64,000 bases of DNA from Hymenobacter yonginensis. Its GTDB lineage: Bacteria > Bacteroidota > Bacteroidia > Cytophagales > Hymenobacteraceae. The first letter of the stretch is position 1. Each line of letters begins with the position of its first letter. A model generated the notes under the pieces. The model had not been told where the DNA came from, did no database searches, and was given only the letters and a program-made list of their open reading frames with translations. Shown here in pieces: positions 15,081 through 59,409 of the stretch. A program made the position numbers and the translations under genes. The stretch covers positions 2,790,001 through 2,854,000 of the forward strand of contig NZ_CP115396.1 of the NCBI RefSeq assembly GCF_027625995.1. The letters are read 5' to 3'.

Positions 15081-15179
15081 GGTAGTTGGAATGAAAGTGT
15101 GAAAGTGAAGGCAAAAGCGTAGCCGGCCGGCTCGCGGAGCGGCTTTTTTAAGTCAGAAAGTGTTGGGCAGGTGTGGGGC

Positions 15180-15226
15180 GGCTGTGGTGCTACGAGTTGC
15201 CCGAAGGGCCTCGTAGTACCACAGCC
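15180..15226. repeat. intercistronic inverted repeat between aceB and aceA
   Basis: Arms GGCTGTGGTGCTACGAG (15180-15196) and CTCGTAGTACCACAGCC (15210-15226) differ by one base and enclose a 13-nt loop that itself holds GCCC/GGGC. It lies 7 nt past the aceB stop without a T-run. Likely roles are partial termination or protection of the aceB transcript end. Confidence 0.65.
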
Positions 15227-15232
15227 TTCGTT

Positions 15233-16864
15233 CTAGGGCAGCTGCTCGTAAGCGGCTACGGTCAGGAATTCGATGAATTTCTCGCTCATCACCAGCTTAT
15301 CGAACAGGCGGGCGGCCTCGAGGTAGCGGCCGGTGGCGTAGCGCTCCTCCCCTACCAGCGCCCGGATTTTCTCCAGCTGGCCGGGCACCAGGCTGCGGTA
15401 GAGTTCCACCGTCAGCGGGCGGCCGTCGGCCAGCACCGTGCCGGGCGTGTGCAGCCATTGCCACACCTGCGCCCGGCTGATTTCGGCGGTGGCGGCGTCT
15501 TCCATCAGGTTATAAATCGGCACGCAGCCGTTGCCGCCCAGCCACGATTCCAGGTATTGCACCGCCACGTCGATGTTGAGCTTGACGCCATCCTCGGTAA
15601 TCTGGCCCTGCGGAGCCCGCACGAGGTCCTCGGCCGTTACCACCAGGTCCTCGCGCTTGTTGGCAATCTGGTTGGGCTCGGACATCAGCTCATCGAAAAC
15701 CGCCAGCGCCACCGGCACTAGGCCGGGGTGGGCCACCCAGGTGCCGTCGTGGCCGTTGCGGGCCTCGCGCACCTTGTCCAGCCGGACTTTCTCCAGGGCG
15801 GCTTCGTTGGCTTCAGGGTTGTTCTTGATGGGAATTTGGGCGGCCATGCCCCCGATGGCGTGCACGCCGCGGCGGTGGCAGGTCTGGATGACGAGCTGCG
15901 AGTAAGCGGCCATGAACGGCACGGCCATGGTCACGTCGGCGCGGTTGGGCAGGCGGAATTCGGGCTTCAGGCCCAGGCGCTTGATGTAGCTGAAAATGTA
16001 GTCCCAACGGCCGCAATTGAGGCCGGCGCTATGCTCGCGCAGCTCATATAGAATTTCGTTGAGCTCGAAGGCGGCCGGCAGCGTTTCAATCAGCACCGTG
16101 GCCTTGATGGTGCACTTCGGCTGCTTCAACGACCATTGCGCAAACCCAAATACGTCGTTCCAGAGGCGGGCCTCCAGGTGGCTCTCGATTTTGGGCAGGT
16201 AGAAATACGGCGCCGTGCCGCGGGCGCACAACTCGTGGGCGTTGTGGAAATAGTAGAGGCCAAAGTCGAAGAAGGCGGCGCTGACGGGCTCGCCATCCAC
16301 CAGCATATGCTTTTCCAGCAGGTGCCAGCCGCGGGGCCGCACCATCAGCACGGCGGTCTGCTCGTTCAGCTTGTACTCTTTGGTGGGCGTGCTCAGCGAG
16401 ATGGTGCGGCGTACGGCGTCGCGCAGGTTGCGCTGCCCTTCCACCACGTTGGTCCAGGTGGGCGAGTTGGAATCCTCCAGATCAGCCATAAACACCTTGG
16501 CACCCGAGTTCAGGGCATTGATGATCATCTTCCGCTCAACCGGCCCCGTGATTTCCACCCGGCGGTCCTGCAGGTCGGCCGGGATGGGAGCCACGGTCCA
16601 GGGCTTTTCGCGGATCAGGCGCGTTTCGGGCAGGAAGTCGGGAAGCTGGCCGGCCTCGAATGCCTGCTGCCGCTCCTCGCGGCGCTTGAGCAACGCCTGC
16701 CGCGTGTGGTCGAAGCGCCGGTGCAGCTCAGCCACAAACGCCAGCGCCGACGGCGTCAGGATTTCAGCAAACTCCGGCGAATACGCCCCGGTGATTTTCA
16801 CGCGCTCCGGCGTCAGGAAGGCGGGGGCGGCTACGGCAGGTTCGAGGTCGGCGAAGGGTGACAT
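15233..16864 (-). CDS. aceB: malate synthase A
   Basis: A 543-residue enzyme condensing glyoxylate with acetyl-CoA to malate. The ATG at 16862-16864 (MSPFADLEP) is chosen because it gives the usual family length and an in-frame start 54 nt upstream overlaps the promoter. Recognisable blocks are [46 protein letters not shown] with the catalytic-region Arg, and [12 protein letters not shown]. First gene of the aceB-aceA unit, divergent from the RamB/ScfR-type regulator. Confidence 0.96.
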
Positions 16865-18574: not shown

Positions 18575-18943
18575 GTTTTTAGTTGCTCGTTGTTAGTTGT
18601 CCGTTGTTCGTAGTTGTGGCGATGACTGCGCTGGCGACGGTCTGCGCCGACAAAGTCGGCAAGACCATACGCCGCCCCGCCGGGCCGGTTTCCGAACCGG
18701 CCCGGCGGGGCGGCCATGCGGAACCGCGCCGCGTGGCTGAGGTCCGGACTTTAGTCCGGAGCCCGTGGCTACTAAGCAGCGCTATTACGCAACACCATCC
18801 CTTGAGCAGCGCGATTGGCAGTAGCGCTGCGTAGTTCGCGCCCCCGCGCCGTTCGAGCGGTTTCGGGCGCCGGACTGAAGTCCGGGCCACAGCCGTCCGG
18901 CGCGTTACCTTTGGGACTTTGGTTTCACTGTTCCCTGCTGCTT
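18575..18943. repeat. gene-free stretch with stacked palindromes
   Basis: Between the regulator and mltG there are: a perfect hairpin with 20-bp arms at 18671-18690 / 18695-18714 (GCCGCCCCGCCGGGCCGGTT); CCGGACT hairpins at 18743-18760 and 18870-18885 with the same stem; and a 21-bp segment at 18831-18851 (GTAGTTCGCG, CCCCCGCGCCG) repeated exactly at 25304-25324. The mltG promoter box lies at the right end. No coding region is convincing here. Confidence 0.75.
18906..18913 (+). promoter_or_regulatory. -7 promoter box TACCTTTG for mltG
   Basis: An exact TAnnTTTG match just downstream of the repeat cluster and upstream of the hydrophobic N-terminus of MltG. It implies the true start lies after about 18920. 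Confidence 0.45.
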
Positions 18944-22816: not shown

Positions 22817-22842
22817 GCCGCCAGCTGGTGCTTGTTCTTTGT

Positions 22843-22870
22843 AAAAAAGCAGCCTTCGGGCTGCTTTTTT
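22843..22870 (+). terminator. intrinsic terminator after the GDSL lipoprotein
   Basis: AAAAAAGCAGCC, a TTCG tetraloop, then GGCTGCTTTTTT. The A and T runs make it usable from both strands; the facing gene ends at 23134. Confidence 0.9.
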
Positions 22871-22893
22871 GTTGCTACCCCAAATTGCGGAAG

Positions 22894-23058
22894 AGCCGCG
22901 TAGCGGCGACAGGGTTGTAGGAAGTCAGATGCTACCTGCAACAAGCCGCATAGCGGCGGCAGGTTTGCAGGACCATCTACTGACGAATCTGTCGCCGCCA
23001 CGCGGCTTTTGCTAGCTGTTGCTTGATAGACTACACACCTGCCGCCGCTACGCGGCTT
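22894..23058. repeat. four-copy GCCGCGTAGCGGC repeat cluster, two direct and two inverted
   Basis: A 20-bp word AGCCGCGTAGCGGCGACAGG at 22894-22913 recurs with small changes at 22944-22963 and, inverted, at 22989-23007 and 23038-23058. Each copy holds its own GCCGC/GCGGC palindrome. The 317-bp gap between the GDSL and GT genes is otherwise empty. Copy 1 can pair with copy 4 and copy 2 with copy 3 as nested stems. Confidence 0.75.
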
Positions 23059-23133
23059 CTCTGCAACTTGAATTTGCTAGGCTCAAATACAAATATGCCG
23101 GTCCGACGGATACTGCCGCCGGACTGGTCATCA

Positions 23134-24783: not shown

Positions 24784-25236
24784 ATGCGCACCGTTATTCA
24801 GCGCGTCCGGCACGCCAGCGTTACCGTCGAAGGCCGCATTACGGGCCAGATTGGGCCGGGCCTGCTGGTGCTGGCCGGCTTCTCCCCTGCTGACACCGCT
24901 ACGTCGCTCGACTGGATGGCCCGCAAACTCACGCAGCTGCGCATCTTTTCCGATGAGGAAGGCAAGATGAACCGCTCGGTACAGGACGTGGGCGGTCAGG
25001 TGCTGGTGGTGAGCCAGTTTACGCTGCTGGCTGATGCCCGCAAAGGCAACCGCCCCAGCTACGCCGGCGCCGCCCCGCCGCCCATTGCCATTCCGCTCTA
25101 CGAGCAGTTTGTACGGCAACTGGAGCAGCTGCTGGGCCAGCCCGTGCCCACCGGCGAATTCGGGGCCGACATGCAGGTGGAACTGCTCAACGACGGCCCC
25201 GTCACCATCGTGCTGGACTCGCCTGAGAGTAACTGA
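24784..25236 (+). CDS. dtd: D-aminoacyl-tRNA deacylase
   Basis: A 150-residue proofreading enzyme that removes D-amino acids (and glycine from tRNA-Ala) mischarged on tRNA. It starts [17 protein letters not shown] as in the family, carries the SQFTLLAD motif at about 78-86, [11 protein letters not shown], and the cross-subunit Gly-cisPro in [13 protein letters not shown]. Length is canonical. The ATG at 24784 fits both the family start and the promoter box. A large palindrome follows 49 nt after the stop. Confidence 0.96.
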
Positions 25237-25285
25237 GCAATGGAGTAATTGAGTAGGCCTATTCCGGCTTGCGCAGAACGTTGAG

Positions 25286-25378
25286 GGCAGTAGCGCGAAC
25301 TTTGTAGTTCGCGCCCCCGCGCCGCTGGAATCGTTTGAACGGCGCGGAGACGCGAACTACAAAGTTCGCGCTACTGCC
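25286..25378. repeat. 93-bp nested palindromic element, type C
   Basis: Perfect 28-bp inverted arms at 25286-25313 and 25351-25378 (GGCAGTAGCGCGAAC...). Each arm is itself a GCGAACT/AGTTCGC palindrome, and an inner GCGCCG/CGGCGC stem closes the centre. It lies 49 bp after dtd and shares a 21-bp segment with 18831-18851. No gene is present in 25237-25457. Confidence 0.85.
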
Positions 25379-25457
25379 ACTACGCAACAGCAGTTACTCC
25401 CTTACCCAACCACTCAGCACTCTCTACTCAGTTACTCAACTACTCAGTTACTCTCCC

Positions 25458-25784: not shown

Positions 25785-25810
25785 GTGGTGGGGTGATGAG
25801 GTGAAAAGCA

Positions 25811-25911
25811 GAACGTCATTCCGAGCGGAGCGAGGAATCTCGCGTGCTGACGTTGAATTACTACTGCAACATCAGCACGCGAGATTCCTCGGTACACTCG
25901 GAATGACGTTC
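25811..25911. repeat. 101-bp nested palindromic element, type A
   Basis: Outer stem GAACGTCATTCCGAG / CTCGGAATGACGTTC, middle stem CGAGGAATCTCGCGTGCTGA / TCAGCACGCGAGATTCCTCG, short loop. It fills the convergent gap between the MazG-like gene and comB. Beyond it the flanks GTGGTGGGGTGATGAGGTGA (25785-25804) and the pyrimidine-rich CATCACCCCATCACC at about 25933 are also complementary. Confidence 0.85.
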
Positions 25912-25948
25912 TTACTTCATCCCTTCATTACTCCATCACCCCATCACC

Positions 25949-26690: not shown

Positions 26691-26796
26691 CTGTCATCCT
26701 GAGGCGGTAGCCGAAGGACCTTAGTACGCCTGCAATACAGCTGGACTACTCGTCCTGACGCAATAAAGTCCTTCGGCTGCCGCCTCAGGATGACAG
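26691..26796. repeat. 106-bp palindromic element, type B
   Basis: 29-bp arms with a single mismatch: 26691-26719 (CTGTCATCCTGAGGCGG...) and 26768-26796 (...CAGGATGACAG). It lies 16 bp past the gcvT stop, in the gap before comB, and shares the CTGTCATCCTGAG and CGAAGGACCTT words with the element at 32355. Confidence 0.85.
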
Positions 26797-30163: not shown

Positions 30164-30204
30164 TGAGGTGATGGAGGAATGAGGAGATGGAGTGAAGAAG
30201 TAAG

Positions 30205-30296
30205 AACGTCATTCCGAGCGGAGTGAGGAATCTCGCTAGTGTGGTAGAATCAGTTACTACACTAGCGAGATTCCTTGCTCCGCTCGGAATGACGTT
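30205..30296. repeat. 92-bp nested palindromic element, type A
   Basis: Arms AACGTCATTCCGAGCGGAG / CTCCGCTCGGAATGACGTT plus an inner AGGAATCTCGCTAGTGT / ACACTAGCGAGATTCCT stem. It fills the convergent gap between the response regulator and rnhB. The flanks GTGAGGTGATGGAGG (from 30164) and CATCACCCCATCACCTCC (30311-30333) are also complementary, so the whole gap can fold. Confidence 0.85.
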
Positions 30297-30330
30297 TTTT
30301 TTATTTCTTCCTCATCACCCCATCACCTCC

Positions 30331-30985: not shown

Positions 30986-31100
30986 TTTCTGGTAATGAGT
31001 ATCTGGTAGAGAGTGTGGAGTAGTTAGGAGAGGTTACTCGGTAATGCACACCAACTACTCAATACTCATTACTCCATACTAAGCACTCAATACTCGCTGC

Positions 31101-32354: not shown

Positions 32355-32458
32355 CTGTCATCCTGAGTGAAGCGAAGGACCTTGTCACGCCAGCACAAAG
32401 CGTAGTAACGAGGACTACTCCGGCGTGATAAGGTCCTTCGATCTGCTTAGGATGACAG
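32355..32458. repeat. 104-bp palindromic element, type B
   Basis: CTGTCATCCTGAG...GCGAAGGACCTT...CACGCC on the left and GGCGTG...AAGGTCCTTCG...CTTAGGATGACAG on the right, with a few mismatches. It lies between the NUDIX gene and plsC, whose promoter box starts 16 bp further on. Confidence 0.85.
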
Positions 32459-45976: not shown

Positions 45977-46064
45977 GCTTCCTAACGCTCGGACTCTGTA
46001 GATTATACCGGGTTTCTCGTTTTGCTTATCAGCCCTTTTTTCACTCACCCATTTTTCACCCTTT

Positions 46065-49000
46065 ATGCAAAAAGCTTTACTCATGAGCACTTTGCTCATG
46101 GCCTCCGCATTCCAGGAGGTAGCGGCGCAGAACCGCAGTATTTCCGGCCGGGTAACTGACCGCCAGACTGGCGAGGGTCTGCCAGGTGTAACGGTACTTT
46201 TGAAAGGCACGTCCAATGGCGTGTCTACCAACTCAGACGGTACCTTCGCGTTGTCTAACGTGCCCGCAACCGGCGGCACGCTGGTTATCAGCTCGATTGG
46301 CTTCATTAGCATTGAGCGCCCGATTGGCACCGACAGCCAGATCAACGTGGGCCTAGCTACTGACTCCAAGCAGCTGAGCGAAGTAGTGGTAACGGCCTTC
46401 GGTATCGAGCGTCAGACCAAAGAGCTTACCTACAGTGTACAGCAGGTAGAAGGCAAAAACCTGGTACAAGCCGGCCAGCCTAACGTTACCAACGCCTTGC
46501 AGGGCCGGGTAGCAGGTGTAACCGTGCGTCAGTCGAGTGGGATGCCTGGCTCGTCGTCGCAGATTACCATCCGTGGCAGCCGCTTCCTGACCGGCAACAA
46601 CCAGCCGCTGTACGTAGTGGACGGTTTGCCTATTGAAAGCAATGCCGACTTTGGCGGGGGTGTTTCCGGTACCGACGCTTCGAGCCGGGCCCTCGACATC
46701 AACCCCAACGACATCGAGAGCATCTCGGTGCTGAAAGGCGGGGCTGCTTCGGCCCTTTATGGTAACCGCGCCAATAACGGCGTAGTGGTTATCACCACCA
46801 AGCGTGGCAAAGGCCTCGATAAGCCGGCTCAACTGAGCTACAGCACCGACTATTCCTGGGATACCCCTTCCGTGCTGCCGGAGCTGCAAAGCAAGTATGC
46901 ACAGGGCAGCGCCGGTACTTTCAGCCCCAATACGTCCCTCTCCTGGGGCCCACTGCTGACGGACCTCAATCCTGCTGTGCTCGACAACGGCGGCAAGCCG
47001 CTGGTACCGGGCAAAGTGTATGACAACGTAGAACCCTTCTTCCGGACCGGCCACACGGCCAACCACTCGGTGGGCCTGGCAGGCAATGGCAGCTACGGCA
47101 ACTACGCCGTAGGCCTGGGCTATACCAACCAGGAAGGTATTGTGCCCACCACGGGCATGAAGCGCTACACTGGCAAAATCAGCGGTGACTTCAAGGTTAC
47201 GCCTAAGCTGACCGTTGGTGCTTCGCTGAACTACTCCAACATCGACATCGACAAAATTGCTGGTGGCTCGAACACGTCGAACCCCCTGTTCACCACGTAC
47301 TTCGCACCGCGCAGCTACGACCTGTGGGGCATTCCGTTCGAAAACGCCAGCAATCCGTTCCTGCAGATTCACTACCGGGCTGCTATTGATAACCCACGCT
47401 GGTCGCTGAAGCACAACTACTTCAACGAGCGCACCAACCGGGTATTCGGTAACGTCAACTCGGCGTACAAATTCACCGACTGGCTGTCGCTCAACTACCG
47501 TATTGGCGTTGACCAGTACACCACCGACGGCAAGGAAGTATACGACCTGGGATCGGGCTTCACCGGCGGCCGCACGGCTATTCCAAGCGGGGGCCAGGTA
47601 AACGACTATTCCGTTATCCAGAGCCAGGTTAACTCCAACGTCAACCTGTCGTTCAACAAGAACCTGACGGAAGACATCAACCTGAACCTGCTGGTTGGTA
47701 ACGAATTCTACAACATCAGCAACCGGTTCCAGAGCATGCTGGGCCAGGGCATCACCATCGGTGGCCTGCGCAACATCGGCTCTACCATCACGCAGACGAC
47801 CAGCGAAACTCTCGACCGTAAGCGCACGGTCGGCTTCTACGGCAACATGATTGCGTCGTGGAAGGACATGATTTTCCTGAATGCCTCCGGCCGCCAGGAT
47901 TATATCTCCAACCTGGAGCGTGACAACCGCAAAATCTTCTATCCTTCGGCTGGTCTCGGCTTCGTGATTACGGAAGCCATTTCGGTTCCACAGAACATTC
48001 TGAGCTTTGCTAAGGTGCGCGCTTCGTACGCCGAAACCGCGCAGGCTCCTGGCGACGCTTATGCGACTCGCACGGTGTTCAACCGCGGTGGCGCCGGTAG
48101 TGGCTTCCTCAGCGACGGTATCAACTTCCCCTTCAATGGGCAGGGTGGTCTCACGCAGAGCGACATTCTGCGCTCCCCGGATCTGCGCCCGATCAACATC
48201 AAGGTTTCAGAAGTGGGCGCTGATCTGCGCTTCCTCAACAACCGTCTGACCTTCGACTACACCTACTTCAAATCGGTGGCATCGGATCAGATCTTCTCCG
48301 TACCGATGGCTCCATCGGCCGGCTACACTTCGCGCTTCATCAATGCCGGCGACCTGCAGACTACCGGCAACGAGTTGACCGTAGGCGTAACGCCCTTCCA
48401 GAGCACGGATGGCTTCAACTGGAACATTACGGCTAACTACACCTCGTACCGGAACCGGGTGAAAGAGTTGTCGGATGGTGTAGACAACATCTTCATTGGG
48501 GGCTTCGTGACGCCAAACGTGCGCGCGCAGGCCAACAACCTCTACCCCGTGCTGTTCGGGTCGCGCTACAAGCGTAGCCCCAGCGGCGACATCGTGGTGG
48601 ACGACGACGGCTACCCCGTTGCTGACGAGGAAAACGGCGTAATCGGCCAGGTTCAGCCAAAGTATGAGCTGGGCGTTACCAACAATTTCAGCTTTAAGGG
48701 CCTCGCCCTGCTGGTACAGGTTGACATGCGTCGGGGAGCTCAGATGTACGGTGGCAATACGCGCCTGGCCAAGCTGTATGGCATGGACAAGGAAACCGAG
48801 GACCGCGAGTCGGACTACGTTTTCTCGGGTGTGAAGGAAGTGCGCGATGCCAACAACAACGTGACTGGCTATACGCCTAACACGACGGCTATCAAGCGCG
48901 ACCAAGTATACTGGTCGCAGGTACTGGACGGTATTTCGGAGTCGAACGTGTACAGCACCGACTTTGTGCGTCTGCGCGAAGTATCGCTGTCATATACACT

Positions 49001-50787: not shown

Positions 50788-51155
50788 GTACTAAGCCAAC
50801 TAGCCCGATCAAATATTATCAGTTTCACAAATAAGTCTTAAAAAACGATTAAAATATTAATATAAAGCGCATATACGCCCAATATCCTTTATATAACCCC
50901 CAAATATGTAGTTACACACATCTCAACATTACATATTACAAACTACCAAATATGACTTTTCTTTGGTCGACAACAAAAGTATTGTGGGACATAGCCGATT
51001 CGTGGTTGCTTCACTACCAGCGAATATTCTCTCATTATTTTGGAATTGACAATCCGGTTGTAAATTCGGACTTCGGAGGTTGGCAATGTGGTTGTAATAC
51101 GCATTTCTTACCTACTTTTTCATAGGCTCACATTCTCACTTTTTCAACACACCTC
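50788..51155 (+). promoter_or_regulatory. AT-rich upstream region of SusCD pair D
   Basis: This 368-bp stretch is strongly AT-rich up to about 50,970, unlike the rest of the window. It holds no plausible gene. Its distal half carries the pair D promoter at 51040-51068. An AT-rich tract this size upstream of a promoter could be a target for nucleoid proteins or an UP-type element; that is inference. Confidence 0.55.
51040..51068 (+). promoter_or_regulatory. promoter of SusCD pair D: TTG, 18 nt, TAAATTCG
   Basis: TTG at 51040-51042 followed by an 18-nt spacer and TAAATTCG at 51061-51068, close to the Bacteroidetes -33/-7 consensus. This is the only site in the window where both elements are well spaced. 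It leaves a leader of about 80 nt. Confidence 0.5.
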
Positions 51156-54100
51156 ATGCAAAAAACCTTACTCGTGGGCACCTTGCTCATGGCCTCCGCT
51201 TTTCAGGAGGTAGCTGCCCAGAACCGGAGTATCTCCGGTCGGGTGACTGATCGTCAGACTGGCGAAGGACTGCCAGGCGTGACCGTACTGCTCAAAGGCA
51301 CAACCAATGGTGTGTCTACCAATTCAGATGGCACCTTCTCGCTGAACAACGTGCCCGCTACTGGCGGCACGCTGGTTATCAGCTCCGTTGGCTTCGTGGG
51401 CCTTGAGCGTACGATCGGCACCGATAACACCATCAACATCGGGCTTGCTACCGACACCAAAGCACTGAGCGAGGTAGTAGTAGTAGGCTACGGCGAGCAG
51501 TCTAAAACCCTGGTAACCGGCTCTGTATCGCAGGTGCAGGCCAAAGAATTTGCCAGCCAACCGATATCCAGCGTTGAGCAGGTACTGCAAGGCCGGGCAT
51601 CCGGTGTGCAGGTGACGTCCAACTCCGGTACGCCCGGCGGTGGTATCAGCGTGCGGATCCGGGGCAACAACTCCATTTCGGCCAGCAGCGACCCGCTGTA
51701 TGTAGTGGATGGTGTACCCGTGAACAGCGGCAACTACTCCAACGTGGGCGTAGGTAACCAGCAGCTCAATGCGCTGGCAGACCTTAACCCCAACGATATT
51801 GCTTCTATCGAGGTGCTGAAAGATGCCTCCGCAGCGGCTATCTACGGCTCGCGCGGTGCCAACGGCGTAGTACTCGTAACGACGAAGCGTGGGCAGAGCG
51901 GCAAAACCAAAATCACGCTCGACGCCTACGCTGGCGTGCAGCAGACCTGGAACCGTCTGGATGTGCTTGACGGCCAGCAAGCGCAGGATCTGATTAACGA
52001 GTCGCGCGTGAACGTGGGGGGTGCTCCACGCTACGTTACGGCCAACCCGAACCCTGCTTCTCAGCAGCTCTTCACAGGCGCTAGCACCAACTGGCAGGAC
52101 GAAATTTTCCGGGATGCCCGCATCCAGAACTATACGCTCTCGGCTTCGGGCGGCGATACGAAGACCCGCTTCCTCATCTCAGGCACCTACTTCGATCAGG
52201 AAGGCATCATTCTGGGCTCGGGTTATACTCGGGGCAGCGGCCGCTTCAACCTCGACCACCAAGTGTCGGATAAGTTCAAAGTAGGACTGAGCCTTACCGG
52301 CAGCCGCTCGTTGAGCAACCGCATCAACAACGACAACAATATCTACGGGGTATTGAGCACGGCGCTGCTTCTGGGCTCGCAGTTTCCGGTGCGCAACGCC
52401 GATGGCACTTTTGGCCGCGACCCATTCAACTCAGTTGAAAACCCAGTTGCTGCTGCTACCCTCCCCACGTTCCTGGCCCGCAACAACCGGGCTATTGGTT
52501 CGCTGTACGGTGACTACCAACTGGCTAAAGGCCTGCGTCTGCGCTCCTCCATCGGTGGTGACTACCTCAACTTGAAAGAGGATGTGTACATTCCGAGCAC
52601 CGCTCTGCAGGCTGTTGGCAGCAATGGTTCCGGCCAGGCAAACAGCCGCTACGATGTGGGCTGGATCAACGAGAACACGTTGAGCTATGACAAGCAGTTT
52701 GGCGACCACTCTCTGACGCTGCTGTTGGGCCAAAGCGCGCAGCGCTCCGTGCAGCAGGGTATCATCACGCAGGTATCGGGCTTCGCGACCAACAAAATCA
52801 CCCAGCTTTCGGCTGGCTCAGTGAAAACTGAAGCGGCTTCGGATGAAACCCTCTGGACGCTGCTTTCCTTCTTCGGCCGCGTTAACTACAACTACCAGGG
52901 CAAGTACATCTTCTCGGGCTCGTTGCGCCGTGATGGATCGTCGCGCTTCGGTGTAGACAACAAATACGGTTATTTCCCGGCTGCCTCGGTGGGATGGCGT
53001 GTTTCGGAAGAATCCTTCCTGAAAGACAATAATGTAGTTAGCGAGCTGAAACTGCGTGCTGGCTACGGTGTGGTAGGCAACTTTGAAATCGGCAACTTCG
53101 CTTCCCGTAACCTGTTTGGCGTTGGTGCCACCAACTTCGCTAACTACAACGCCGTGGCAGGCTTTGCCCCCACTCAGTTGGGTGTAAATGACCTCGGATG
53201 GGAGCAGTCCTCGGAATTCACCGTCGGAGCTGACTTGGGCTTGCTAGAGAATCGGATTCTGGTGTCTGCCAACGCATTCAAGCGCAAAGCAAACGACCTG
53301 CTGCTAAACCGTCAGCTGCCACTCACCTCGGGCTTCGGCACTGTAACCCAGAACATTGGTGACCTGGAAAACAAAGGTCTGGAATTTGACTTAACTACCC
53401 AGAACGTGAAGAATGAGTCGTTCAGCTGGTCGACCAACCTGAACGTGTCCATCATTCGCAACGAGGTGACGCGTCTGGTAAACAACGCGCCTTTCCTGGC
53501 CGGCTTCGCCAGCCGTGTTGAGGTAGGCCAGCCGCTGGGTAGCTTCTATGGCTACGTGGTAGACCGCATCTACCAGACTCAGGAAGAAATTAACACCGAC
53601 ATCGCCAACGCCCGGACCAAGACCGGTAACCCTGCCGCCCTGTACCAAGGCACGAGCGCGGCTACTACGCCTCGCCCCGGCGACATTCGCTTCGTTGACC
53701 TGAACGGTGACGGCTTGGTTACTGCGCTGGACCAGAAAATCATCGGCTCGGCACAACCAAAGTTCTTCGGCGGTATCACCAACACGCTGAACTTTAAAGG
53801 CATTGACCTGAGCTTCTTCTTCCAGTTCACCAAAGGCAACAAAATTTATAACAACACCCGCGCCTTCGGTGAGGGTATGAATGGTCAGTTTGGCCAGCTT
53901 GCCTCTACCCTGGACCGCTGGACGCCAACAAACCCCAGCACTACCATGCCACGTGCAGCTGCTGGCGACCCCAACAACAACCGTCGGACTTCGGACCGTT
54001 GGCTGGAAGATGGCTCTTACCTGCGCCTGAAAACGGCTACGCTGGGCTACAATCTGCCTACCACCTGGATTGCTCCTCTGCGTCTGCAGTCGGCTCGCAT

Positions 54101-59205: not shown

Positions 59206-59318
59206 CGGCGTTTGGCAGGTAGTTGCAGGAGATAAGACGGCCAGGCCAGCGCATTTATTGTGCGCCGCAACCGGAGTTTACCGGCATCAATGCCTGTAAG
59301 CAGCGAGCCAAAGGAACG

Positions 59319-59409
59319 TCATGCAGAGCATAGCGAAGCAACTCGCGTGCTGACGTTGAAATAGCAATCAGACGTCAGCACGCGAGATGCTTCGCTGCGC
59401 TCTGCATGA
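59319..59409. repeat. 91-bp nested palindromic element, type A'
   Basis: Outer stem TCATGCAGAGC / GCTCTGCATGA, then AGCGAAGCA / TGCTTCGCT, then CTCGCGTGCTGACGT / ACGTCAGCACGCGAG. The inner CTCGCGTGCTGACGTTGAA is identical to that in the element at 25811, while the outer arms differ. It lies 33 bp after the lon stop. Confidence 0.85.

Follow-up and report, generated by a model that had tools for sequence, protein, structure and literature searches.

Two kinds of REP pairs at gene 3' ends in Hymenobacter yonginensis, and the association of CGTC REPs with stand-alone GIY-YIG nuclease genes

Introduction

Six inverted repeats lie close to stop codons in the 64,000 nucleotides of Hymenobacter yonginensis DNA analyzed here (the whole stretch, hereafter the window). 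A preliminary description took them for one family of bidirectional terminators or mRNA 3'-end protectors, perhaps spread by an unseen mobilizing enzyme. What are these elements, and what spreads them? Two sets of tagged hairpins invite comparison: the GTAG REPs, which form REPINs and go with the Y1 transposase RAYT (TnpA-REP), and the CGTC REPs. The sections of Di Nocera et al. (2013; PMC3733652) that deal with the latter describe them without associated transposase genes and list Bacteroidetes among the phyla that carry them.

Results and Discussion

The six elements of the window

Checking of the sequence confirmed inverted repeats at all six places (Table 1). By our own gene calls all are intergenic, with a stop codon 8–49 nt away, as had been described. 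They are two kinds of REP, one GTAG pair (at 25286) and five CGTC pairs of three stem types (ATTCC, ATCCT and ATGCA), so that the single family originally proposed is ruled out.

Apart from small departures, the CGTC units read (C/T)GTC-AT-NNN-GA-GC-NNN-GC-GA-NNN-AT, and each element is made up of two such units facing outward. The hairpin consists of five outer pairs, a tandem G-A mismatch, two further pairs and a loop usually of three bases, and the tails of the halves read CTCGC, CTCTA or CTTAT. Members of the CGTC REP superfamily carry an unpaired CGTC, TGTC or CCTC motif at one end of the palindromic unit, and their stem opens with a complementary A and T. Nine of the ten halves bear a CGTC or TGTC tag, the exception being the right half of 59314–59409; our genome-wide finders demand TCAT and therefore offer no independent test of the tag. 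Every window half starts with AT, a feature that the finders also demand. The complement of this AT is found in halves of the ATTCC and ATGCT types and in most of the ATGCA type; those of the ATCCT type mostly have AC at the end, giving an A-C first pair.

Table 1. Palindromic elements of the window
Feature	Position	Strand	Arms (complementarity)	Distance to stop codon	Remarks
GTAG-tagged REP pair	25286..25378		25286-25324/25340-25378 (95%)	49 nt (stop codon at 25236, before the element)	GTAG + CGCGAACT-TTGT-AGTTCGCG hairpin at each end, units outward-facing
CGTC-tagged REP pair	25811..25911		25810-25860/25862-25912 (88%)	26 nt	stem ATTCC/GGAAT, spacer type cgcgtgctgacg; convergent gap
CGTC-type REP pair, TGTC tag	26691..26796		26685-26728/26759-26802 (86%)	16 nt (stop codon 26813 of - strand gene)	stem ATCCT/AGGAC
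CGTC-tagged REP pair	30205..30298		30202-30246/30255-30299 (91%)	32 nt	stem ATTCC, spacer type cgctagtgtggta; convergent gap; T run comes next on + strand
CGTC-type REP pair, TGTC tag	32355..32458		halves 32356-32380/32433-32457	8 nt (stop codon 32346, before the element)	stem ATCCT
CGTC-type REP pair	59314..59409		59319-59356/59372-59409 (92%)	33 nt (stop codon 59443 of - strand gene)	stem ATGCA/AGCAT; left tag CGTC, right tag CATC
Unrelated palindrome (GGCTGTGGTGCTACGAG...CTCGTAGTACCACAGCC)	15160..15235				gene 3' end; CGTC REP pair at this place in G001

In their CGTC/TGTC tag, a palindrome starting with AT, mostly paired inverted units and a position near gene 3' ends, these elements resemble the CGTC REPs as characterized in the pertinent part of PMC3733652. 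They differ from that account in the tandem G-A mismatch, the 3-base loop and tails other than CCA. Families 1–4, for which the same source gives an 8–9 bp stem, a 4–5 base loop and a tail mostly CCA, do not accommodate them, and on their sequence we would file the window elements in the CGTC REP superfamily only, outside these families.

Several other repeats were seen in the window. Arrays of degenerate GAGTAAT-like or GTGATGAGG-like units (25225–25256 / 25424–25455, 25785–25810, 30164–30200 and 31000–31100) surround three of the elements as an outer inverted layer and are isolated at 31 kb; the window and the related genomes G001 and G003 differ in the length of these arrays. Positions 18831–18863 resemble part of the 25286 element (85% over 33 nt) and are perhaps a partial GTAG REP. 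Nested inverted repeats round GCCGCGTAGCGGC occupy 22881–23070, within the convergent gap 22817–23133. Direct repeats of 300 nt, 80% identical, lie at the starts of two long genes (46044–46343 and 51135–51434) which are probably paralogues.

Copy number, placement and distribution

Genome-wide counts were made in G001, the nearest genome compared, to which 25% of the window's sampled 31-mers are common. It holds 112 ATTCC-type CGTC halves at three mismatches or fewer and 123 GTAG halves at two or fewer, the reversed-pattern controls giving none. Among 145 CGTC halves with at least four of five pairs found in 1.6 Mb (one half in the reversed control), the principal outer stems are ATGCT/AGCAT (48), ATTCC/GGAAT (44), ATGCA/AGCAT (30) and ATCCT/AGGAC (14). 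The stem type is equal on both sides in 47 of 54 CGTC pairs. Two pairs (L037 11363–11503 and L073 10348–10489) have longer spacers, for a total of 141–142 bp, as if another repeat had inserted.

Out of 113 CGTC elements in the G001 stretches, 104 lie in gaps, 8 inside called genes and one in neither count. The association with stop codons noted in the preliminary description survived comparison with random placement in this genome: the nearest stop codon is 50 nt away or less for 67 of the 104 intergenic copies, where chance gives 20.2 (s.d. 4.1), and 100 nt or less for 85, where chance gives 34.7. By gap type the copies number 7 in divergent, 21 in convergent and 76 in tandem gaps, where gap length predicts 20.9, 17.1 and 66.0. 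Placement at gene 3' ends is supported statistically, and it is the pattern given for REPs in the relevant part of PMC3733652.

Across 59 relatives the CGTC pattern GTCATNNNGAGNNNNNCGANNNAYCT found halves in all 37 genomes of the genus (26–591 each) and one match in total in the 22 genomes from other genera of the order. The GTAG pattern is patchier (26 of the 59 genomes, all of the same genus). Y1 model PF01797 matches in 41 of the 59 and RAYT model NF047646 in 48, including 33 of the 37. Three same-genus genomes, G016, G024 and G033, have no match to either model; they hold 40, 161 and 45 CGTC halves, with 11 pairs in G016 and 63 in G024. Divergent or broken Y1 genes could escape both models, PF01797 having missed the broken RAYT gene of G001.

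GTAG REPs and RAYT genes

The Y1/RAYT search suggested earlier was run on the 59 relatives, and at some loci RAYT genes stand, by positional comparison, between GTAG REPs. One is in G001 itself (851.5–852.5 kb; L113 3519–4479), where a RAYT gene with a broken frame lies between three and four GTAG REPs; both its pieces match NF047646 under its cut-off (E 6.7e-6 and 2.1e-8), and the locus is apparently the GTAG partner decaying in this genome. Intact RAYT genes have GTAG REPs on both sides in G005 (L344) and G025 (L345). The 25286 element thus combines the tag and hairpin, the inverted pair, the many copies and the REP-flanked RAYT locus characteristic of GTAG REPs and REPINs. Used as a positive control, GTAG REPs were detected near 4 of 20 RAYT loci, on both sides at two; the other 16 same-genus loci, with no GTAG REP of 25286's type within 400 nt, may serve other repeats.

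CGTC REPs stood on both sides of none of 18 Y1 loci (on either side of one with the wider of two half finders, of none with the strict one) and of none of the 20 RAYT loci (either side, four), some genes belonging to both sets. In G001 no CGTC REP adjoins the IS200-like gene (L001) or a 220-aa Y1 gene (L002). The absence of linkage to Y1/RAYT genes reported for CGTC REPs holds here. With positional linkage missing, RAYT is not favoured as their mover. An unseen mobilizing enzyme is supported by these loci, one RAYT for all six elements is not: GTAG REPs have a RAYT gene between them, while CGTC REPs are linked by position to a GIY-YIG gene.

Linkage of CGTC REPs to a GIY-YIG gene within the genus

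Genes with CGTC halves close on both sides number 13 of 1374 in the G001 sample plus the window and are mostly ordinary. One of them is a 110-codon GIY-YIG gene between ATGCT halves (G001, L217), and a linkage test was therefore begun. The family search returned 30 loci, 26 of them from the genus, one each from 26 of the 37 genomes; the REP-linked genes encode stand-alone GIY-YIG nucleases of about 95 aa. With the strict finder a CGTC half occurs on either side at 13 of the 26 loci and on both at 5, against 179 and 15 of 1149 genes in G001. The wider finder, which also detects stems such as ATTGC and ATGCC, gives 21 and 11, against 338 and 40 of 1155. Because it found 11 matches in reversed sequence (63 in the true one), some of its matches are doubtful, among them one side of L221 and that of L224. 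The stem type is equal on both sides at 10 of the 11 two-sided loci, the exception being L221 with its doubtful match, as against 8 of 40 ordinary genes.

Single REPs as well as pairs occur beside the nuclease gene, in mixed orientation and flanking it on one side or on both; five of the 26 loci have none. Of the window's stem types only ATCCT and ATGCA have a flanked nuclease among the labelled genus loci, none of which has ATTCC REPs (the type of 25811 and 30205) around it. Two GIY-YIG matches were obtained in G028, which has 271 halves, and two in G007, which has 178; the one listed for each genome is UvrC-sized.

Linkage in other phyla

For a sample from plasmids, 35 records were found by tblastn with one REP-linked nuclease and 15 were picked for organism diversity before their flanks were seen. 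A CGTC REP lies at most 203 nt from the match in 11 of the 15 (Rhizobium, Neorhizobium, two of Shinella, S. meliloti, Sinorhizobium, A. lipoferum, R. tumorigenes, Photobacterium, Planktothrix and Spirosoma), on one side only in S. meliloti, R. tumorigenes and Photobacterium. The records from two Sphingobium, one Sphingomonas and N. aromaticivorans have no CGTC REP near the match. The reversed control gave one REP against 40. In the Planktothrix agardhii plasmid (L226) the GIY-YIG gene with its CGTC-type REPs lies between an annotated type IIL restriction enzyme MmeI and DISARM drmA.

Genome contigs were scanned with six query proteins, all from REP-bearing loci, and the best 80 of at least 578 GIY-YIG loci were analyzed. 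Within 200 nt of the nuclease gene a REP is present on either side at 55 and on both sides at 28, while 25 have none beside it. Random placements in the same loci (n=1022) give 7.8% and 0.6%; for other genes at a distance above 400 nt the counts are 25 and 5 of 145. The 53 more distant loci (L267 on) taken alone give 32 and 17. By record title 60 of the 80 loci are alphaproteobacterial, 22 of these being two-sided; the remaining two-sided loci belong to two Gammaproteobacteria, one Cloacimonadota, one Nomurabacteria and two Proteobacteria filed under Epsilonproteobacteria and Myxococcia. The six-base stem is identical on both sides at 24 of the 28, where random pairing gives a mean of 7.3 and at most 13. 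Nearest REPs mostly face outward (upstream 30 + and 12 -; downstream 31 - and 10 +), and certain spacings recur, 22–24 nt for an upstream + REP and 12–16 nt for a downstream - REP (11 cases each, many in related Rhizobiaceae).

Might the nuclease be a host or restriction-type gene that happens to reside in REP-rich places, a passenger of the REPs and not their mover? REPs do flank other genes, as the either-side figure of the wider finder for G001 shows; in the 80 loci, 75 of the 250 genes other than the nuclease (its neighbours included) are REP-flanked. Linkage on both sides is far above such background (Fisher P 1.5e-9 and 3.8e-10), and the recurrent short spacing at the nuclease and the concordance of stem types with the nuclease tree, described below, also speak against a passenger. 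We think this explanation quite unlikely.

Whole units were also found present in one genome and absent from another. In A. lipoferum 4B the sufB–sufC gap contains a REP pair, the nuclease gene and a second REP pair, the degenerate inner half of the left pair having been identified by eye; sufB and sufC are present without this unit in A. ramasamyi, A. oryzae, Azospirillum sp. B510 and A. thermophilum. G001 has a 484-bp ATTGC unit (178153–178636 of the 3.0–3.2 Mb stretch) where G003 has a single ATTGC half. Those 200 kb of G001 contain three more ATTGC halves, two of them paired at 24.2 kb and the third single at 62.8 kb. In all three, the eight bases TTCCTCTC outside the hairpin are the ones found at both unit ends, as would be expected of non-autonomous copies.

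The nuclease and its phylogeny

All four nucleases scanned match PF01541 (E 6e-19 to 1.5e-16). Y6, Y17, G19, R27, H31, E64 and N83 are invariant in the 24 sequences aligned, and these include the catalytic Tyr, Tyr, Arg, Glu and Asn of the GIY-YIG family. Although a sequence search of solved structures with one nuclease protein gave nothing at E 0.01, the predicted fold (pLDDT 95.4) has Slx1, UPF0213 (1zg2), UvrC and I-TevI as its nearest solved chains. The protein is like stand-alone GIY-YIG proteins (PF01541; UPF0213, PDB 1zg2) and Slx1, UvrC and I-TevI in catalytic domain, conserved residues and predicted fold. None of the literature matches listed (open-licence PubMed Central papers) gives such stand-alone proteins a REP-linked role.

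Trees were built with treekit in its 'quick' mode and have few strongly supported branches. Of the 125 GIY-YIG loci L208, L211, L222, L230, L235, L237, L243 and L306 were left out, and four more, none labelled, from the tree of all loci; the proteins of L203 and L204 are identical. Each row was labelled with the five stem bases of the nearest REP, a noisy procedure: L196 is labelled ATACT though ATGCT stands 27 nt away on its other side, and the label of Spirosoma (ATGAT) differs from its main REP. The genus tree (23 rows, 18 labelled) requires 5 stem-type changes for 6 labels, which is the minimum, where 500 shuffles average 8.65 with a lowest value of 7. Adding other Bacteroidota and one cyanobacterium (29 rows) gives 7 changes for 8 labels, again the minimum (shuffles: mean 11.6, lowest 9). 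For the full set of 83 labelled rows the count is 23 against a minimum of 13 (mean 45.9, lowest 41). Host kinship contributes to the wider figures because related hosts share both nuclease and REPs. Within the genus several stem types coexist, yet sort by nuclease clade. The tiny GIY-YIG nuclease is, on this comparative evidence, the likely dedicated partner of CGTC REPs.

Copy numbers do not discriminate between the two enzymes. Over the 37 genomes, kinship ignored, CGTC counts rise with those of GIY-YIG (rho 0.41, p 0.011; UvrC counted in), of RAYT (NF047646; rho 0.50, p 0.0017) and of GTAG (rho 0.45, p 0.005); GTAG counts rise with RAYT (0.72) but not with GIY-YIG (0.26, p 0.13). The partial rho, kinship again ignored, is 0.25 for CGTC with GIY-YIG given RAYT and 0.39 for CGTC with RAYT given GIY-YIG. 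PF01797 alone gave a misleading 0.20 for Y1 against CGTC, and NF047646, which matches three (G007, G011 and G036) of the five same-genus genomes that PF01797 does not, erases that separation. With RAYT counts fitting CGTC at least as well, we dropped copy number as support for GIY-YIG alone, and because CGTC counts also follow RAYT our confidence in the GIY-YIG reading was lowered.

The same correlation, together with RAYT matches in nearly all genomes of the genus and a structure resembling GTAG REPs, is what speaks for CGTC REPs being moved by a Y1 transposase of the RAYT or IS200 type, acting in trans or since lost. We nevertheless regard this as unlikely. Two-sided CGTC REPs are missing from all 18 Y1 and all 20 RAYT loci, though GTAG REPs were found near 4 of the 20; the three genomes in which neither model matches keep their halves; CGTC and GTAG rise together, and shared genome habits could produce the RAYT correlation; and the part of PMC3733652 on this subject reports no such linkage.

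Orthologous sites

Five of the six window sites are occupied by an element or its remnant in both G001 and G003, the 25286 site by an element in each; the gap of the 59314–59409 element is without it in both. At the 25811 site the window and G003 have common heads and different spacers; in G001 the palindrome has collapsed, its right flank being a copy of the left. A comparison of 204 orthologous gaps between G001 and G003, rows L083–L085 left out, showed named elements of the same type shared in 11, of differing type in 3 (two of these through one degenerate copy) and on one side only in 11. At 6 of these 11 presence/absence sites the other species has a different palindrome (score >=18); where no named element is present the rate is 51 of 358 gaps (P 0.0026). 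The six include AB77, the 25811 copy in its collapsed form, and leaving it out gives 5 of 10. AB85, the palindrome at 15160–15235, does not reach this score in G003 and is excluded from the six; by eye it is common to the window and G003 and replaced in G001 by a CGTC pair. The 59319 element, L077_4 and AB40 were gained or lost with no hairpin of that score taking their place. In L082 gap 11 of G001 there is a GTAG REP pair where the same gene end in G003 has a different palindrome (GTAGAGACGCAATATTTTGCGTCTC).

These replacements, as if a hairpin were wanted at the site, raise the question of whether the hairpins have been selected as bidirectional terminators or mRNA 3'-end protectors, the GIY-YIG gene being only a frequent neighbour. 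Their proximity to stop codons would agree with this. In the convergent gaps of 25811 and 30205 (25785–25948 and 30164–30330) a search for the best hairpin returned the element itself, while the convergent gaps at 1.1, 6.0, 7.0, 40.6 and 55.7 kb each contain a compact A-stem-T hairpin; both observations bear out the preliminary description. Its suggestion of a terminator role is weakly supported: the 30205 element ends in a T run and 25811 does not, and for 36 elements in tandem gaps the ten nucleotides past the element hold on average 4.08 T on the transcript-exit side against 3.53 on the other. With so slight a T-tract asymmetry a dedicated terminator is not favoured. Selection as RNA elements would leave the three gains or losses without replacement, the stem matching round GIY-YIG genes and the tree concordance unexplained, and we give it a low probability as an account of the CGTC REPs.

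A purely replicative process, in which strand switching templated by hairpins both creates and rewrites palindromes that lack a dedicated enzyme, would account for the rewritten flank of 25811 in G001. It would also suit the arms within an element being more alike than those of other elements of the type, which applies to three of four stem types (ATTCC 0.952 vs 0.902, ATCCT 0.978 vs 0.914, ATGCA 0.996 vs 0.978; for ATGCT the excess is not significant, P 0.087). The same sequence at hundreds of unlinked places and the insertion of whole units are left unexplained by it, making it very improbable as the sole cause. Strand switching may well act alongside an enzyme.

A proposed mechanism

We put at roughly two in three the probability that GIY-YIG nucleases spread the CGTC REPs; from the association described above we infer recognition, cutting and copying by repair. 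Short mobile palindromes such as REP pairs would persist where their insertion harms least, right after stop codons. For the GTAG pair the enzyme would be the Y1 transposase RAYT. A GIY-YIG gene with CGTC REPs to its left and right, either single outward-facing ones or pairs, would make up the complete unit, and CGTC REPs by themselves would be its non-autonomous form. The nuclease of about 95 residues, with a Slx1/UvrC-like fold, would recognize a CGTC-tagged hairpin that has its stem type and is extruded or exposed in single-stranded DNA, and would cut near the tag. Host repair would then insert a copy of the pair, or of the entire unit, elsewhere. Insertions inside genes would be lost and those just behind stop codons would remain. 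Palindromes already in place may be favoured as targets or be exchanged, leading to swaps, and some copies, for example 30205 with its T run, may have been turned into terminators.

The CGTC units share with the GTAG/RAYT system a lay-out in which the enzyme gene lies between REPs. Unlike that system, the linked enzyme is a GIY-YIG nuclease of a different fold. GIY-YIG nucleases act by hydrolysis, whereas Y1 enzymes including RAYT form a tyrosine link to DNA. As with the MITEs of insertion sequences, a short non-autonomous form shares its ends with a longer enzyme-coding unit; unlike MITEs, the CGTC system has no classical transposase, its ends are hairpin REPs and a target duplication is not established. 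The GIY-YIG gene also sets our units apart from CGTC REPs as published, which in the account of PMC3733652 that concerns their genes have no transposase gene.

Whether such units amount to a mobile class of their own, CGTC hairpins with a stand-alone structure-specific GIY-YIG nuclease, one stem type per clade and copying by cutting of the extruded hairpin and repair, seems to us an even question. Such a class would range over Hymenobacter-like Bacteroidota, Alphaproteobacteria, Cyanobacteria, Campylobacterota and Patescibacteria.

Conclusions

CGTC REPs are present in several phyla, and the paper that named them (PMC3733652) left their mover open. A nuclease tied to them by position, stem type and phylogeny reduces the matter to a single gene that can be deleted and a single protein that can be assayed. 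If the proposal is true, REP-mobilizing enzymes would include a class with no relation to the Y1 transposases, and a role would be assigned to a common gene whose only annotation is 'GIY-YIG nuclease family protein'. Cutting and repair would then also explain how unrelated palindrome families come to replace one another at the same gene ends.
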